Shown here piece after piece: positions 4,607 to 11,108 of a stretch of DNA of 64,000 nt; position 1 is the first letter of the stretch; each line of letters starts with the position of its first letter. A program made the translations under genes and the position numbers. The notes below the pieces were generated by a model, which saw nothing but the letters and a program-made list of their open reading frames with translations, was not told where the DNA came from and did no database searches. Origin of the DNA: Dactylosporangium aurantiacum (GTDB lineage: Bacteria; Actinomycetota; Actinomycetes; Mycobacteriales; Micromonosporaceae); the NCBI RefSeq assembly GCF_000716715.1, contig NZ_JNYJ01000043.1:1-64000 (forward strand). The letters are read 5' to 3'.

Positions 4607-4622
4607 CCCGGGCGGCGGTCAG
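4603..4622. terminator. Hairpin shared by two convergent stop codons
   Basis: CTGACC and GGTCAG form a 6-bp stem with an 8-nt loop. The TGA stop of the phosphatase is in the left arm and that of the Nudix gene in the right arm. Short, no U-tract; a bidirectional terminator is plausible. Confidence 0.4.
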
Positions 4623-5356
4623 CGGGGCCTGGCCTGCGGCTGCGGGCGCAGCATCGGCGGGGTGAGGACGGTGGCGGGTCCGCGGCGGTACAGGTTCGCG
4701 GGCCGGCCGGTCTCCGGGAGGCGCTGCTGCCCGGTCGCCTCCAGGAACCCCTCGGCGCCGAGCACCTTGCGGTGGAAGTTGCGGGGATCGACGGGCTGGC
4801 CCCACACCACCTCGTACACCTGCCGCAGGTCGCCGATCGTGAACTGCGGCGGGCAGAAGGCCGTCGCCACGGTCGTGTACTCCAGCTTCGCCCGGGCCCG
4901 CTCCACCGCGTCGCACAGGATCGCGTCGTGGTCGAAGGCGAGGCCGCCGCCGGTGAGGAACGGCTCGACCGGCCGCCAGTGCGCGTCGGCGGCGTCCGTG
5001 CCGGCGGACGGCTCCGGCAGGAACCCCTGGATCGCCAGGTAGGCGACGGTGACGACGCGCCCCCGAGGGTCGCGGCCCGGGGTCGCGTAGGTCCGCAGCT
5101 GCTCGAAGTACAGCCGGCCGGCGTCCAGGCCGGTCTCCTCGGTCAACTCGCGCGCGGCGGTGTCGTCAAGGTCCTCCTCGGCCCGGACGAACCCACCGGG
5201 TAGCGCGAGCTGCCCTCTGAACGGCTCGTTGCCGCGCTCGATCAGCAGGACGTGCAGGGTCCCGTAGCGGACAGTGAGCACCACAAGGTCGACGGTGAGT
5301 GTCGTTGCGGCCCGCCCGGCATGGTTGGTCATCGTCACACGATAGCTATACGTCAT
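4619..5356 (-). CDS. Nudix hydrolase with C-terminal winged helix (NrtR-like)
   Basis: A 245-residue protein. Residues about 20-165 are a Nudix domain with a complete Nudix box starting at GGFVRAEEDLDD and ending RELTEETGL (G-x5-E-x7-R-E-U-x-E-E-x-G-U). The C-terminal third (LEYTTVATAFCPPQFTIGDL, then FHRKVLG) is the winged-helix part found in NrtR-type NAD-metabolism regulators and related COG4111-like proteins. In that family the Nudix domain may sense ADP-ribose and release DNA. With an intact box it could also be catalytic. The ATG at 5356 gives the longest form; ATG 5332 (MTNHAGRA) is an alternative. It lies divergent to the membrane-protein/nucleosidase module, so control of that promoter is possible. 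Confidence 0.82.
   Translation of the reverse strand: MTYSYRVTMTNHAGRAATTLTVDLVVLTVRYGTLHVLLIERGNEPFRGQLALPGGFVRAEEDLDDTAARELTEETGLDAGRLYFEQLRTYATPGRDPRGRVVTVAYLAIQGFLPEPSAGTDAADAHWRPVEPFLTGGGLAFDHDAILCDAVERARAKLEYTTVATAFCPPQFTIGDLRQVYEVVWGQPVDPRNFHRKVLGAEGFLEATGQQRLPETGRPANLYRRGPATVLTPPMLRPQPQARPR
5342..5349. promoter_or_regulatory. ATAGCTAT palindrome at the Nudix gene start
   Basis: A perfect 8-bp palindrome in a locally A+T-rich patch overlapping the first codons of the longer Nudix form and facing the divergent gene at 5492. It would lie just upstream of the start if translation begins at 5332. A candidate operator or -10 element only. Confidence 0.25.
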
Positions 5357-5491
5357 CTTGACGCGAACTCCGTCACGGGCTTAACGTCACTTGTACATAA
5401 AGACCGTGTGCGATGCGTTGCGGTGCGTGACGCGCCCACCCTGCGCCGGTCCGGCTCATCCGACGGCCCACCGACACGCTGTGGAGCAACG

Positions 5492-7195
5492 ATGACGACC
5501 AGCACGCGCCCGCCACGCCAGGCCGGGCCACGCGACGAGACCCCCGCCCCGGCGGCACCGCCGATGGCGGCGACCCGACACCTGTGCGCCGGCACGTACC
5601 TCGATGAGGAGTTCTGCCGGCTCGCCCTGCGCGAGGTCTACGACCAGCCCCGGCGCCTCGTCGCGCCGTCCTACGGCTTCGACCTCGGCACCGTCCTCGG
5701 CCACGCCCGGCGGGCCGGCCGCGCCAACCTGATCCGCGACGCGGTCGTGACCGCCGCGTTCGCCATCGCGTTCTTCTCGATCATCGGCATCCCGGCGGTC
5801 CTGGCGGTCGGCAGCGGGCTCCTGCTGCTGCAGTGGGCCGTCATGCTGTGGCGGATCACCGTCACCGTCGTGCACCTGCTGCGCGCCGGCGACTACGCCG
5901 GACTGCTGCGGATCCGCTTCCGGATCTTCCTGGTCAGCGGCGTCACGGCCGTCGCCTTCTTCCTGGCGGTCACCGTCCTGCCGCTGGTGGGGGTCGCCGT
6001 CCTCGGCGCCATGTTCGCCACCAACGCCGGCGCCGGCGACGCCGACGTGACCACCGTCATGCTGCTGCTGCAGGGCAGCGTGTACGGGCTCATCGCCGCG
6101 GTCCTCGTCGGCGCGCTCGGCACCGGCATCTGGCGCCAGCAGCAGCTGGAGCACCTGGCACCGGGGATGGTCCCGGAGCCGCCCGCGCCGGCGCCGCGGT
6201 ACGAGGAGATCTACCAGGAGCAGCAGGGCAACGTCACCGTGTTCGCCGGCCCCCGGCCGTTCGTCGGCTCCGGCGAGGACACCGGCACGTGGGGCACCGC
6301 GCTGCGGCTGCTGCGCGCCGACCGCGACCCGCTGCACCCGACCCCCGAACGGCAGCGGATCTTCAACCGCCTGCCGTTCACGACCGACGAGCTGCTGCGC
6401 GCGGTCCGCGGGCGGGTCGAGGCGCTGGCGCACCAGAGCGACCCGGCGCACCGGCTGCCCGGCCTCGCCGTCGAGCACCGGGTGTTCATGGCCGGCAGCG
6501 AGATCGCCGCCGCCGAGTTCCGGCCCGCGCTGCCGGCCGCCGAGGTCGCCGCGCTGGTCGCCGACCCGACCAGGCCGGCCCGCCTCTTCCTCGCCTTCCG
6601 GGTCGTGTCCTGGGACGGGCAGCTGGTCACCAACGTCTACGTGCACTGCGCGCTGCACGGCAACACCCTGTACCTCGAGGTGTCGTGCTGGGCGCTGCCG
6701 CCCTGCAAGTGGGCCTACCGGATCGTCGACGACGTGCGCGGCACCGGTCCCTTCGCGTTCATCCGGGCGGCCGTGCACAGCCTGGCCGACATGCCGCGGA
6801 TGGTCGGCCGGGCCCCGCTCAACCTCGCGCGGCTGGCCCTGGACAAGATCGGCAACGCGTCGACGGGCGGCGGCGGCGCCCGCTCGCGGCGCTACGACTA
6901 CGGCGCCGCGGTCAGCGTCCGCGAGGCCGGGTCCGACGAGTTCCTGGAGCACTCGCTGCACTGGCACGACGTGCAGAAGTACACGCGGATCATCGAACGG
7001 CAGGTCGTCGCCGCGGTGTACGACTTCCTCGACGAACACGACGTGGACCTGTCGGAGTTCCGGATGCGGGCCATGAACATCCTCAACACCGGCGTCTGGC
7101 ACTCCGGGAAGGGCGACGTCAACATGGGCGGCGGCAACCTCTTCGGCGCCGGGCCCGCGACGCCCGGCCAGCCCGGCCGCGGGGAGCGGTCGTGA
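5492..7195 (+). CDS. Four-helix membrane protein with C-terminal GGGNxFG motif
   Basis: 567 residues. The soluble N-terminus (MTTSTRPPRQ...) is followed by four predicted membrane helices at about residues 84-105, 106-128, 148-172 and 185-210. A cytoplasmic-looking domain of about 300 residues follows; it includes GNVTVFAGPRPFVGSG, a phrase I recall from uncharacterised actinobacterial membrane proteins. Residues 532-552 carry a Gly/Asn-rich motif (HSGKGDVNMGGGNLFG core) that is repeated almost exactly at the N-terminus of the next gene. The stop overlaps the next start by 4 bp (GTGA), so the two are translationally coupled. I do not recognise a catalytic domain. The shared motif suggests the two products bind or co-polymerise. 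The start ATG at 5492 follows a GGAG. Confidence 0.8.
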   Translation: MTTSTRPPRQAGPRDETPAPAAPPMAATRHLCAGTYLDEEFCRLALREVYDQPRRLVAPSYGFDLGTVLGHARRAGRANLIRDAVVTAAFAIAFFSIIGIPAVLAVGSGLLLLQWAVMLWRITVTVVHLLRAGDYAGLLRIRFRIFLVSGVTAVAFFLAVTVLPLVGVAVLGAMFATNAGAGDADVTTVMLLLQGSVYGLIAAVLVGALGTGIWRQQQLEHLAPGMVPEPPAPAPRYEEIYQEQQGNVTVFAGPRPFVGSGEDTGTWGTALRLLRADRDPLHPTPERQRIFNRLPFTTDELLRAVRGRVEALAHQSDPAHRLPGLAVEHRVFMAGSEIAAAEFRPALPAAEVAALVADPTRPARLFLAFRVVSWDGQLVTNVYVHCALHGNTLYLEVSCWALPPCKWAYRIVDDVRGTGPFAFIRAAVHSLADMPRMVGRAPLNLARLALDKIGNASTGGGGARSRRYDYGAAVSVREAGSDEFLEHSLHWHDVQKYTRIIERQVVAAVYDFLDEHDVDLSEFRMRAMNILNTGVWHSGKGDVNMGGGNLFGAGPATPGQPGRGERS

Positions 7196-8124
7196 CCACG
7201 CACAACTCGGGGGTCTCGCACTCCGGCACCGGCGACATCACCCTGGGCGGCGGCAACGTGTTCGGCGGCCGCGGCAACGCCGGCAGCCACAACCCGGTGT
7301 GGACCCGCGGCGCCCCGCGGGCCGAACCGCCGGCCGAACCCCCGGCACAGACGCGGGACCGCGCCGACGTCGGGGTGATCACGATCCTGAGCGAGGAGAC
7401 CGAGGCGGTCGCCGAGGTGCTGCGCCGGCGGGTCACCGAGCTGCGGGCCTCGCGCGGTCCGGTGTTCTTCGACGGCCGGGTCCCCGCCGGCGACCGGTCG
7501 CTGCACGTCGTCGGCGTCCAGGCCGGCGGGCCGGGGCAGCACCCGGCGGCGGGCGCCTTCGCGCACCTGCAGCGCCACGCCGCGCCGCGCACCACCGTGG
7601 TGGTCGGCATCGCCGGCGGCATCCACCGGGACCTGCGCCTCGGCGACGTGGTGGTCAGCGACGACGTCCTGTACTACGAGGCCCGCAAGGACAAGCCCGG
7701 CGAGACCCTGCACCGGGGCCAGGCGCACACCGCGCCGCTGGTGATCCGCTGGGCGGTGAACGCGTTCTTCAGCGCCCGCGGCGAGCCGTTCCCGCTCACC
7801 GTGGACCGCAGGGAGTTCCGGGTGCACCACGGGCCGATCGCCTCGGGCGAGGCGGTGATCGCCGACGCGGCGTCACCGATCCGCCAGTTCGCGGTCGCGT
7901 ACAACGACAAGATCGCGGCGGTCGAGACCGAGGTGTTCGCCGTGGCGCACGCCTTCCACGAGGCGGTCCCGCACGACCCGGACCTGGTCGGCTGGCTGAC
8001 GGTCCGCGGCATCTCCGACCACGCCGACCAGGCGAAGGACGACGCGACCCACGTCGCGGCGGCCCGCCACGCGGCGGCCGTGTTCGACCTGCTGCTGCCG
8101 GCGCTGAGCCCGCCGTCCCGGTAG
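7192..8124 (+). CDS. PNP/MTAN-superfamily nucleosidase with N-terminal GGGNxFG motif
   Basis: 310 residues from a GTG overlapping the previous stop. Residues 5-25 carry the motif shared with the upstream protein (HSGTGDITLGGGNVFG core), then a Pro-rich linker to about residue 55. Residues 58-305 are a nucleoside phosphorylase/nucleosidase domain: GVITILSEETEAV start, phosphate/ribose-loop strand VVGIAGGIHRDLRLGD (residues 138-152), ribose-binding Glu cluster VETEV (E245, E247) and the purine-binding acid in GISDHAD (D276). The closest housekeeping relatives are MTA/SAH nucleosidase and AMP nucleosidase. The N-terminal motif and coupled membrane partner argue against a salvage enzyme and for a regulated effector, for example an ATP- or NAD-related nucleosidase. 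Substrate is unknown. Confidence 0.85.
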   Translation: MTTHNSGVSHSGTGDITLGGGNVFGGRGNAGSHNPVWTRGAPRAEPPAEPPAQTRDRADVGVITILSEETEAVAEVLRRRVTELRASRGPVFFDGRVPAGDRSLHVVGVQAGGPGQHPAAGAFAHLQRHAAPRTTVVVGIAGGIHRDLRLGDVVVSDDVLYYEARKDKPGETLHRGQAHTAPLVIRWAVNAFFSARGEPFPLTVDRREFRVHHGPIASGEAVIADAASPIRQFAVAYNDKIAAVETEVFAVAHAFHEAVPHDPDLVGWLTVRGISDHADQAKDDATHVAAARHAAAVFDLLLPALSPPSR

Positions 8125-8202
8125 AGCCACCCCGGGGCGGGTCGCCGCCCGTCCCGGGGTCGGGCCCCGGCCCTGCGGCCCTCCGCGCCGCGGGGCCGGA
8201 CA

Positions 8203-8250
8203 GGCCGGCCCGGACATCATGACCGAGGGGGGACGATGTCCGGGCCGGCC
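8203..8250. terminator. Strong bidirectional hairpin
   Basis: GGCCGGCCCGGACATC (8203-8218) and GATGTCCGGGCCGGCC (8235-8250) form a perfect 16-bp stem with a 16-nt loop, between the convergent nucleosidase and hypothetical genes. Confidence 0.75.
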
Positions 8251-8253
8251 CGG

Positions 8254-8874
8254 TCACACGGTCCTGGTGTCCCAGTCCCACGGCAGGCCCAGGCCGTCGA
8301 ACCGGCCGAGGGCGTCGCGGTGGCGGGCGGCCAGCACGACCCGGTCGGGGCCGAGGTGGCCGAGCAGGTCGTCGTCGCCGTAGTAGCGGGTCCGCGGGTC
8401 CGGCCAGCGCCACAGCGGGTCGTCCAGCTCGCGCAGGCGCAGCCGGACCTGGCGTAGCGCGTCCGGGGACGGGGACATGAGGACGAGGCCGTGCAGGGGC
8501 GCGTACGTCGCCTCGTACACCGCGGCGTACACGAGGAACCGCGACAGCGGCACGCCGGTGGCGGTCGTGTCGTTCTCCACGACGAGCGGGTCGGCGGGGC
8601 CCGGGGCGTAGGAGTACCAGTCCTCGGCGCCGACCCAGAAGCGGACCAGCCCGGCGGACTCGACGAGGTCGGCGGGGTCGAGCATCACGTGGTCGCGGCT
8701 CAGCGGCAGCGAGTAGCGGGCCGCGGCGCGGTGCCAGCCGGCGAGCGGCTCCGGCAGGTGGTCGGGCAGGTCGAGGTCGCGGCGGGGGCGGTCGGGCAGC
8801 CCGTACCAGCGGGCGACGAAGCGGCCGAGGCTGTCGTCGGCGATCACGTCGAGCTCGTACACGCCCCAAATCAT
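8254..8874 (-). CDS. Hypothetical protein, 206 residues
   Basis: A well-formed reading frame with G/C third positions, starting MIWGVYELDVIADDSLGRF. It is soluble, acidic and tryptophan/tyrosine-rich (FWVGAEDWYSYAPG, WRWPDPRTRYY) with no signal peptide, membrane helix or recognisable catalytic motif. The alternation of short hydrophobic strands and helices is vaguely like SMI1/KNR4 (SUKH) proteins, but I see no diagnostic residues. It stands alone, convergent to the nucleosidase module across a strong terminator and divergent from the TRAP transporter. Confidence 0.7.
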   Translation of the reverse strand: MIWGVYELDVIADDSLGRFVARWYGLPDRPRRDLDLPDHLPEPLAGWHRAAARYSLPLSRDHVMLDPADLVESAGLVRFWVGAEDWYSYAPGPADPLVVENDTTATGVPLSRFLVYAAVYEATYAPLHGLVLMSPSPDALRQVRLRLRELDDPLWRWPDPRTRYYGDDDLLGHLGPDRVVLAARHRDALGRFDGLGLPWDWDTRTV

Positions 8875-8960
8875 GCCCGGTGACCCACCGTTGCCGTTTC
8901 GCGACCAAAACCTGAACTATCACGGTTACGAATATTTATGAAATCTTGTACTCTCCGCCC

Positions 8961-11108
8961 GTGCCGGAACCCGAGAGCCCCAGGCCGGACGTGGTCGAGC
9001 CCGGCTCGGCACCCGCCGCGCCGCAGACCGCCGCACCGCAGACCGCCGCGCCCGGGACCGCCGCGCCCCGGACCGCCGTCGCCGACGTCGACGCGACCCT
9101 CAAGGACGACAGCGTCCGCGAGCTCGCCGCCCAGTTCGAGGACGAGAAGCCCGGCCGCCGGCTCACCGGCGCCGTCGACACCGGGGTCACCGTCGCCGCC
9201 GCCGCGTCGGCGGTCCTCGTGCTGTGGCAGGTGTTCCGGCCCCTGGCCCAGGGCGGCCAGTACTACCTCGCGATCTTCCTCGCCTGCGTCCTGCCGCTGG
9301 TGTTCGTCGTGTACCCGTCCGGGGTGCGGCTTCGTCGTACACCGGCGGCGGACCCCGGCCGCGGGCCGACCCCCGGCGACTGGATCCTCGCCGCGGTGGC
9401 CCTCGCGGCGTGCGCCTACCCGCTGCTGCCGTTCGCCAGCGGCGGCTACGACGCGTTCCTGAACCGTCAGGGGCAGCTCGACCCGCTGGACGTCGCCATG
9501 GGCACGGCGCTGCTGCTGCTCGTGCTCGAGGCGTGCCGGCGCACCACGGGCTGGGTGCTGCCCGTGGTGTGCGGGGTGTTCCTCGCGTACGACTACTACG
9601 GCGGCTACCTGCCGCAGACCTGGTCGCTGGCGCACCTCGGGCTGGACTTCGACCAGATCGTCGACGCGCTGTACAACTCGCAGAGCGGCTTCTACGGCAC
9701 CCCGCTCGACGTGGCCGCGTCGTACATCGTGCTGTTCACGATCTACGGGGCGGTCCTGGACGCGTCAGGGGCCGGCGCGTTCTTCGTGGAGCTGTCCGTG
9801 GCCGCGTTCCGCCGGTCGCGGTCGGCGGCCGGGCGCACCGCGGTCGCGTCCGGGTTCCTGCTCGGCACCGTGTCGGGGTCCGGCGCCGCGACCACGGTCA
9901 GCATCGGCGCGGTCACCTGGCCGATCCTGCGCCGGGCCGGCTACCCGGCGGACCGGGCCGGCGGGATGCTCGCCGCGGCCGGCGTCGGCGCGATCCTGTC
10001 CCCGCCGACGCTCGGCGCCGCCGCGTTCATCATCGCGGAGTACCTCGACGTGTCCTACCTGTCAGTGCTCGGCTGGGCCACGGTCCCGACGCTGCTGTAC
10101 TACCTGGGCATCCTGCTCGCCGTCGAGATCGACGCGCGGCGGTTCGGGGCGCGGCCGGTGGCGTTGCGGGTCCGCTCCCCGTGGACGCTGCTCGGCCGGT
10201 TCGGGTACCACTTCGCGTCGCTGCTGGTCATCATCGTGCTGCTGGCGCTGGAGCAGCCGGCGACCCGCGCCGTCATCTACGCGACCCTCCTCGCGGCGCT
10301 GCTGTCGTTCCTGGACCGCCGGCACCGGCTCACCCCGCGGCGCCTCGTCGCGTCGCTCGCCGCCGGGATCCGCGGGGTGCTGCCCGTCGTCGCGGTCTGC
10401 GTCGCGGCCGGCATCATCACCGCCAGCACCACCAAGACCGGCCTCGGCCCGCAGCTGTCGGGGCTGATGGTCGACTGGGCGCAGTCGCTGGCGAGCGGGC
10501 ACACGGCGGTGATCGCGTTGACGGCGGTGTTCGCCGCGGTCGCGCTGACCCTGCTGGGGCTCGCGGTGCCGGTGACCGCGTCATTCATCATCGGCTGGGT
10601 CATCATCGGCCAGGCGCTGCTCGAGCTCGGCGTCGACCGGCCCGCGACGGCGATGTTCATCTTCTACTTCGCGGTGCTGTCCGAGGCGACCCCGCCGACC
10701 GCGCTCGCGTCGGTGGCCGCCGCCGCCGTCACCGGCGGCAAGGTGTTCCCGACGATGTGGCAGACGCTGCGGTACGCCCTGCCGGCCTACCTCGTGCCCA
10801 TCGCGTTCGTGGTCACCCCGGCCGGCCGGGGGCTGCTCGGCTTCGGCGGCTGGGACGACGTCGGGTTCGCCTTCGCCGCGTCCGCCGCCGGGGTGCTCGC
10901 GTTGTCCGTCGCCGCCGGCGGCTGGCTCATCGGCGCCGGCCCGGCCGGCCCCGCGGCCCGTGTCCTCGCCGGCCTCGCCGCGCTGGCGCTGCTGTGGCTC
11001 TCCCTGTGGACGGTGCTCACCGGTGTCGCGCTGCTGCTCGCCGCGGCGGTGCTGGTGCTCGTCCGCGCATCCCGTTCGACCCCGTCACTGGAGGAGGAAC
11101 CCGCGTGA
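8961..11108 (+). CDS. TRAP transporter fused permease (4TM/12TM, TAXI-type)
   Basis: About 715 residues, nearly all hydrophobic after an Ala/Pro-rich N-terminus. It is a fusion of the small (DctQ-like) and large (DctM-like) TRAP membrane subunits. The large-subunit core is visible: GTVSGSGAATTVSIGAVTWP and AAGVGAILSPPTLGAAAFI, then a second inverted half with VPVTASFIIGWVIIGQALLE and SEATPPTALASVAAAAVTGG. With the following receptor it forms a sodium- or proton-driven secondary importer of organic acids or amino-acid-like solutes. The GTG at 8961 is preferred over TTG 8946; neither has a good ribosome site. The stop overlaps the receptor start (GTGA). Confidence 0.92.
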   Translation: MPEPESPRPDVVEPGSAPAAPQTAAPQTAAPGTAAPRTAVADVDATLKDDSVRELAAQFEDEKPGRRLTGAVDTGVTVAAAASAVLVLWQVFRPLAQGGQYYLAIFLACVLPLVFVVYPSGVRLRRTPAADPGRGPTPGDWILAAVALAACAYPLLPFASGGYDAFLNRQGQLDPLDVAMGTALLLLVLEACRRTTGWVLPVVCGVFLAYDYYGGYLPQTWSLAHLGLDFDQIVDALYNSQSGFYGTPLDVAASYIVLFTIYGAVLDASGAGAFFVELSVAAFRRSRSAAGRTAVASGFLLGTVSGSGAATTVSIGAVTWPILRRAGYPADRAGGMLAAAGVGAILSPPTLGAAAFIIAEYLDVSYLSVLGWATVPTLLYYLGILLAVEIDARRFGARPVALRVRSPWTLLGRFGYHFASLLVIIVLLALEQPATRAVIYATLLAALLSFLDRRHRLTPRRLVASLAAGIRGVLPVVAVCVAAGIITASTTKTGLGPQLSGLMVDWAQSLASGHTAVIALTAVFAAVALTLLGLAVPVTASFIIGWVIIGQALLELGVDRPATAMFIFYFAVLSEATPPTALASVAAAAVTGGKVFPTMWQTLRYALPAYLVPIAFVVTPAGRGLLGFGGWDDVGFAFAASAAGVLALSVAAGGWLIGAGPAGPAARVLAGLAALALLWLSLWTVLTGVALLLAAAVLVLVRASRSTPSLEEEPA

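Follow-up and report, generated by a model that had tools for sequence, protein, structure and literature searches.

Two kinds of described signalling pair come close to the locus reported here. In bacteria, the BASS amyloid motifs comprise several tag classes, and the tags are also reported, more rarely, together with TIR or CHAT domains (as summarised in PMC8086366 and PMC7889193). In BASS pairs as outlined in PMC7889193, the tag is C-terminal on a Bell executioner, the Bell domain being a small helical bundle with a transmembrane helix, and N-terminal on an NLR. In fungi, the PUASM tag is common to PNP_UDP enzymes and NLRs, and according to the account in PMC9815663 two PUASM peptides form amyloid-like fibrils, one of which is prion-like in Podospora. 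Whether NLR-independent signalling amyloids exist in bacteria is treated as an open question in a 2021 review (PMC7889193). Here we describe a membrane protein and a nucleosidase encoded by overlapping genes of Dactylosporangium aurantiacum and carrying matching 21-residue tags, found in positions 1 to 64,000 of contig NZ_JNYJ01000043.1 (assembly GCF_000716715.1), a stretch referred to throughout as the window. The pairing of matched tags across the family of related loci is well shown, and the pair is probably an NLR-independent, amyloid-type two-part module which recruits or activates a nucleotide-destroying effector. The gene pair and its tags are as follows.

5492-7195, plus strand: gene 1, membrane protein P0001, the putative sensor (ATG start, 567 residues)
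7085-7147, plus strand: tag copy 1, NTGVWHSGKGDVNMGGGNLFG, residues 532-552 of P0001
7192-8124, plus strand: gene 2, nucleosidase P0002, the putative effector (GTG start, 310 residues)
7192-7195, plus strand: four-base stop/start overlap GTGA of genes 1 and 2
7204-7266, plus strand: tag copy 2, NSGVSHSGTGDITLGGGNVFG, residues 5-25 of P0002

The initial annotation had placed matching 21-residue stretches at residues 532-552 and 5-25, one at a C-terminus and the other at an N-terminus in overlapping genes. These coordinates are exact and the placement is confirmed, the two copies aligning without gaps with 14 of 21 residues and 51 of 63 bases identical and sharing the form xGVxHSGxGDxxxGGG. The GTGA overlap suggests translational coupling of the membrane protein and nucleosidase genes; the same four-base overlap is observed in 56 of 79 related pairs, in which start codons were picked by script. 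Local alignment of the C-terminal 45 residues of P0001 (the tail) with the N-terminal 50 residues of P0002 (the head) gives a score of 85 (z-score 9.4), a value reached by none of 20,000 tail shuffles. When the motif was written as degenerate DNA and at most 3 mismatches were allowed, the two tag copies were the sole matches in the window, and 100 shuffles gave none.

A single-sequence motif query of the complete D. aurantiacum genome (11.44 Mb) returned both tag copies and one further place with an E-value of 0.33 (contig C39), which lies in a protein resembling an FAD oxidase by eye and is treated as chance. With a motif profile (A3) constructed from 34 of 64 tags, 11 having been put aside by eye and 19 others left out, the two copies rank 1st and 2nd in the genome (E-values 1.6e-6 and 0.0097). 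A 16-residue match to the profile (E-value 0.03, contig C47), antisense to a likely real gene as judged by base composition, is also treated as chance. As the motif is nearly confined to two copies in its own genome, it is not a common Gly-rich tail there, and the doubt raised in the initial annotation, that the tags could be plain Gly-rich tails of widespread occurrence, is rejected by these searches of that genome. In 148 genomes of the class, a motif search detected the D. aurantiacum genome alone at an E-value of 0.01, a search that is insensitive as it missed all 19 other receptor-carrying genomes of the same sample.

Scanning a single genome per species identified 177 relatives of the membrane protein; the top 80 were retained, and each of these has an actinobacterial name. 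A partner open reading frame (ORF) lies directly downstream at 79 of these loci, the other (L047) being dropped at a contig end; partner start codon and frame were chosen by script and, with the window added, the test set consists of 80 pairs. The last 45 residues of each membrane protein were compared with the first 50 residues of the partner by local alignment. Own pairs score 83.8 on average and mismatched pairs 35.1, with the best of 10,000 re-pairings reaching 42.0. Absence of the motif from orthologous pairs, which according to the initial annotation would have refuted its reading, is not observed, all 80 pairs scoring at least 44 and 72 scoring at least 55, compared with a mean of 20.2, a maximum of 44 and none at 55 or above for 306 control pairs of same-strand neighbours from the same loci, whose genes were called by base composition. 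The tail gives a mean of only 17.7 against partner residues 61-110, and the membrane-protein stretch just before the tail gives 19.4 against the head. The own partner is ranked first by 42 of the 80 tails (ties shared) and within the top three by 59.

Tail and head co-vary beyond relatedness. Because relatives are alike anyway, tail/head similarity was corrected for relatedness, and in the 54 PNP pairs (53 plus the window) the partial correlation of tail with head, given both protein bodies, is 0.44, a value not reached in 5,000 permutations; the own head beats the head of the nearest relative in 38 of the 54, with 2 ties. A held-out set of 18 loci contained three repeats of loci already used, and 12 of the other 15 gave both tail and head, no head being obtained at the remaining three. 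In the 12 held-out pairs, the mean is 60.2 for own and 23.1 for mismatched pairs, with 10,000 re-pairings reaching at most 51.8, and the own head ranks first in 8. Agreement with the main set is thus partial; at least four of the 12 (L092, L099, L103, L104) look like wrong gene calls and L095 is a tail-less homolog. The L091 pair has an identical 23-residue run in tail and head. In a genome of the same genus (L089), tail and head repeat those of L021 from Dactylosporangium sucinum.

Recurrence of the tags in adjacent pairs with different effector domains, proposed in the initial annotation as a check, is observed for PNP, two TIR families, bDLD3 and small partners. The 79 partners consist of 53 PNP proteins, assigned by profile, 14 CAP12-type TIR proteins, assigned by the string VFVVHGRDE, and 12 others. 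A Pfam scan of 14 representative partners, which covered half of the ten small ones belonging to the 79, detected TIR_2 (L016), CAP12-PCTIR_TIR (L045, L049, L059), bDLD3 (L018), PNP with bDLD3 (L019) and PNP (L015). Five scanned partners (L024, L027, L069, L083, L091) are small and DUF5955-like, below the Pfam cut-off, and two (L072, L094) gave nothing usable. TIR_2, CAP12-PCTIR_TIR, bDLD3 and PNP plus bDLD3 are partners of conflict-system type among those scanned, and no NLR domain was detected by Pfam in the two window proteins or the 14 scanned partners. The tags of PNP, TIR, bDLD3 and small partners match those of their own membrane partner, and the 26 non-PNP pairs score 90.2 with the own partner and 29.9 against PNP heads, indicating that tag and partner are exchanged together. 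One partner consists of a tag and bDLD3 alone (L018:7676-8071) and another has the order tag-PNP-bDLD3 (L019:7582-8913); these two proteins link flexible tags to folded death-domain adaptors.

Comparison with PUASM gave a mixed result. The initial annotation had assigned the motif to no named class, and this holds to the extent that the strict PUASM pattern given in PMC9815663, FxGxGxQxxGxGxF, is unmet by both window copies, which lack the leading F and have N for the first G, S or W for Q and I or V for the last F. The window copies nevertheless resemble fungal PUASM, the peptides described in PMC9815663 having the form xGIxxxGxGNxxVGxD where the window has xGVxHSGxGDxxxGGG. The window head scores 58 and 48 against two PUASM peptides (z-scores 6.0 and 4.9, reached by 0 and 4 of 5,000 shuffles) and the window tail 39 and 36 (z-scores 3.4 and 3.3, reached by 31 of 5,000 in each case). 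BASS3, BASS3-like, sigma and non-aggregating sigma-like peptides give z-scores of 0.4-2.7 against the window copies (0.4-1.9 against the head), with one BASS3 peptide showing little likeness at 1.6-1.9. A PNP-class tag profile, built solely from tags that fit a fixed pattern (60 of the 120 heads and 31 of the 92 tails prior to deduplication, window copies included), scores 19.6 bits against the enzyme-side PUASM peptide, a score reached by 2 of 20,000 shuffles. By these alignments the likeness to PUASM holds for the window copies, extends in part to the PNP-class profile and is lacking in the tag set as a whole, and the window tag may be PUASM-like through common descent or through convergence on the same enzyme.

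In arrangement, the locus shares features with each described system and differs from each. It has in common with PUASM a similar tag on a PNP_UDP_1 enzyme and on the product of a neighbouring gene; in PMC9815663 the enzyme tag is described as C-terminal, the partner as a NACHT or NACHT-WD40 NLR and the distribution as Pezizomycotina only, whereas here the enzyme tag is N-terminal, the partner is not an NLR and the genome is bacterial. With BASS pairs, in the outline cited above, it shares a tag carried by the products of two adjacent genes, at the C-terminus of one and the N-terminus of its neighbour; here, in contrast, there is no NLR, the N-terminal tag belongs to the partners that have enzyme domains, and the constant partner is a 567-residue four-helix membrane protein where Bell is small. 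Compared by description only, P0001, with four helices and an alpha/beta domain, is unlike Bell. With bDLD3 and effector-associated-domain systems, as presented in PMC8195603, the locus shares a modular adaptor joining sensors to PNP, TIR or other effectors in multicellular bacteria, and bDLD3 itself occurs in two of the scanned partners. The adaptors in that presentation are folded and helical, however, and no such membrane receptor is described there, while the link here is a flexible tag of 20-25 residues. The pair is consequently not a BASS pair, having no NLR, nor PUASM, as pattern and partner differ. By analogy, the module appears to work like both. The initial reading of the locus as an amyloid signalling pair is supported as to tag placement and recurrence and is not retained in so far as it implied a BASS pair made up of an NLR and a Bell protein. 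A search of the open-access literature returned no report of this membrane protein/nucleosidase tag pair.

The membrane protein P0001 matches nothing in Pfam or PADLOC at E-values up to 1, and no NCBIfam model reaches its cut-off. Its AlphaFold2 model (predicted local distance difference test, pLDDT, 87) contains two regions besides the tag.

5684-6151, plus strand: four predicted transmembrane helices, residues 65-220, hydrophobic by eye
6233-7090, plus strand: soluble alpha/beta domain and C-terminal helices, residues 248-533, weakly START/helix-grip-like

The modelled helices span residues 65-95, 99-132, 135-178 and 186-220, and Arg-rich loops suggest that both termini are cytosolic. Tag copy 1 sits at the start of a low-confidence C-terminal tail, residues 535-567 (pLDDT below 50 from residue 535). 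The soluble domain is large and conserved in the family; in a Foldseek search of the Protein Data Bank it gave weak matches, START/helix-grip being the commonest but tied with others, and this fold is not claimed, the structural matches being weak. A VIA search with the soluble domain and a search of viral models with the whole receptor also gave weak matches, and a receptor profile compared with the sequences of solved structures gave 13 weak matches, the best (E-value 0.0027) to a designed transmembrane protein. A tail-less subfamily is represented in the same genome by the receptor homolog L086 (C41:25000-38000; gene 6233-8341, minus strand), which adjoins a 1281-residue protein with HEAT-like repeats by eye and has no PNP gene seen beside it by eye. 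The held-out L095 is another tail-less homolog. Tail-less members included, the distribution of the receptor family is patchy, with 10 of 61 relatives, among them 3 of 7 genomes of the genus, 20 of 148 genomes in the class and 4 of 119 in a sample of the phylum. These counts include the D. aurantiacum genome and may be lower bounds, only part of each genome's candidates being scored. A plasmid search produced three records, none covering 80% of the query.

The nucleosidase P0002 carries the following domain.

7369-8082, plus strand: PNP_UDP_1 domain, residues 60-297 of P0002

It matches PF01048 (2.9e-19, 69.9 bits against a curated cut-off of 25.1) and, in PADLOC, 'Effector, PN-superfamily' (1.7e-19) and PDC-M60C (3.8e-20). 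Among 120 aligned proteins, E69 is conserved in 119 and both E247 and D276 in all 120; the three residues are presumably the catalytic Glu, Glu and Asp, positions which we take from E. coli MTAN. P0002 is thus predicted to be like methylthioadenosine/S-adenosylhomocysteine (MTA/SAH) nucleosidase, with a conserved putative active site. The NCBIfam MTA/SAH equivalog cut-offs are nonetheless missed (59.1 bits against 169 and 43.4 against 73.8), indicating that the substrate may differ. A 2025 review (PMC12881547) describes PNP_UDP modules as hydrolysing ATP in the course of immune cell death, so that nucleotide depletion would by analogy be the likeliest output of the module.

Divergent from the gene pair lies a gene for a regulator of the NrtR type, the ADP-ribose-responsive repressor family.

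4619-5356, minus strand: NUDIX plus winged-helix gene of NrtR type (longest ORF)
5352-5362, no strand assigned: operator-like palindrome GTCA-N3-TGAC, exact, between the divergent genes

This gene probably starts at an internal ATG at 5332. Its Pfam matches are NUDIX (8.8e-17, 61.8 bits against 21.1) and NrtR_WHD (8.8e-16, 58.3 against 27); the NCBIfam NtrR equivalog is matched at 1.3e-39 but with 136.1 bits against a cut-off of 400. Homologous NUDIX genes, found by the string ALPGG and sequence clustering with Pfam applied to L035 alone, stand immediately upstream on the opposite strand at 33 of the 53 PNP loci, and at three others they lie downstream of the PNP gene; no NrtR-type gene was detected adjacent to TIR-class pairs. 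The palindrome has three matches in the window where 0.98 are expected and is therefore not remarkable on its own. Across intergenic regions with gene ends, it is exact in 26 of 34, whereas shuffled regions give 0.29 on average and never more than 3; this count enters the window region as a miss, that region having been set too short for the site, and is no independent test because the palindrome was first found in the same regions, although the excess is large. M. smegmatis NrtR regulates biosynthesis of nicotinamide adenine dinucleotide (NAD) and is released from DNA by ADP-ribose, as reported in PMC6800001. The locus has in common with that system the NUDIX and NrtR winged-helix domains and a palindromic site beside the gene, and differs from it in the site (mycobacterial GTTTTCGA-N7-TCGAAAAC, here GTCA-N3-TGAC) and in the neighbour (nadABC there, the tag pair here). 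By analogy, the NrtR-type gene suggests that expression of the module rises with ADP-ribose, and the tag pair may be a new kind of target for NrtR, beyond the biosynthesis of NAD.

Further genes were observed at the window and at related loci. In the window, 8946-11108 and the next ORF encode a large transporter-like membrane protein and, next to it, a periplasmic binding protein that is lipoprotein-like, and the genes from 8946 look like a TRAP-TAXI transporter by eye. At 20 related loci, a third gene of about 220 residues with a hydrophobic N-terminus directly follows the PNP gene, and at 11 loci, ten of the TIR class plus L047, a small membrane-protein gene lies directly upstream of the receptor. 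No Pfam match was obtained for the one copy of each that was scanned.

L041:8643-9296: example of the third gene
L047, L049, L055, L059, L063, L064, L067, L073-L076: small upstream membrane-protein gene, mostly 206-262 residues

In the mechanism we propose, the four-helix membrane protein, with both termini in the cytosol, would be a sensor that clusters when triggered. Its clustered, flexible C-terminal tags would nucleate a cross-beta, amyloid-type assembly, which would template the matching N-terminal tag of the nucleosidase, so that the enzyme would be concentrated at the membrane and probably activated. Hydrolysis of an adenine nucleotide or nucleoside would then lead to growth halt or cell death, with the divergent NrtR-type repressor probably setting expression by ADP-ribose, that is, by NAD breakdown. 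Receptors of this family would, in relatives, drive TIR proteins, a death-like-domain adaptor or small proteins, each through its own matched tag. The amyloid state, signal direction, trigger, substrate and defence role of the module are all inferred. The tags are short, lie at chain ends, are modelled with low confidence and are exchanged between partners; in these respects and in composition they fit the amyloid motifs of BASS and fungal pairs as characterised in PMC8086366 and PMC7889193. Several observations weigh against this proposal. Docking of like tags with no amyloid involved would produce an identical signature in the sequences, and a recent copying event could add to the likeness of the two window tags, which are 81% identical in DNA. 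For 38 of the 80 tails another head scores at least as high as the own head once ties are counted, tag-less receptor homologs exist, one of them in the same genome, and no match was found in phages. As regards PUASM, the PNP-class tag profile gives only 5.5 bits against the NLR-side peptide (z-score 2.1, 592 of 20,000 shuffles) and 16.7 bits against a non-aggregating fungal peptide (z-score 2.7, 236 of 20,000), and the mean z-scores of 160 bacterial tags are 0.33 and 0.50 against the PUASM peptides and 0.62 against BASS3. Finally, the tag polarity of BASS pairs, as given in PMC7889193, would make the membrane protein the executioner.

Of the alternatives, docking of like tags in short beta strands or a small complex, tethering the enzyme permanently with no templating switch, is unlikely but deserves the most attention. 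The pairing and co-variation evidence fits it equally well, and strict adjacency with the four-base overlap suggests a fixed stoichiometry; on the other hand, Gly/Asn/Ser-rich end tags of 20-25 residues that have low confidence in the model and are exchanged among TIR, PNP and death-like partners follow the known amyloid-tag pattern, and PUASM, to which the window copies are closest among named motifs, is experimentally amyloid in the work reported in PMC9815663. A metabolic module, in which an NrtR-controlled, membrane-bound nucleosidase manages NAD or adenine by-products and the tag is a tether, is improbable: the divergent NrtR-type gene of the PNP loci with its shared palindrome, the conserved MTA/SAH nucleosidase-like active site and the ADP-ribose-released control of NAD biosynthesis by M. 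smegmatis NrtR (as reported in PMC6800001) would accord with it, whereas tags of this type also pair the receptor family with TIR and bDLD3 proteins, the family's distribution is patchy and the TIR class has no detected adjacent NrtR-type gene. The reverse direction of signalling, with the membrane protein as a pore-forming or lipid-binding executioner and the enzyme as sensor or signal amplifier, would follow the Bell/NLR order of tags, C-terminal on the membrane protein and N-terminal on its partner (in the PMC7889193 outline), and is still less probable, as it is the partner that varies, often bearing catalytic domains known as effectors, and the soluble domain of the membrane protein is large and conserved. 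A chance resemblance between two Gly-rich ends, to which their low-complexity Gly/Ser/Asn composition might incline, is refuted by the tail shuffles, by the control pairs and by family-wide co-variation, and its probability is negligible.

The 80 matched pairs constitute a concrete set with which to address the question of NLR-independent amyloids, with specificity controls built in because tag and partner change together, and a receptor family without a Pfam match is defined and linked to an ADP-ribose-responsive NrtR-type regulator. More tentatively, and with our confidence falling a little short of even, bacteria would possess NLR-independent amyloid signalosomes composed of one actinobacterial family of four-helix receptors, interchangeable PNP, TIR or death-domain effectors and co-evolving C- and N-terminal tags, and the PNP tag would be related to PUASM. 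Were this true, the PNP tag/PUASM would be the second amyloid tag, after RHIM/PP/BASS3, common to bacteria and eukaryotes. The family of pairs described here may provide the counterpart, in bacteria, of a prion tag that fungi carry on enzymes of that family.

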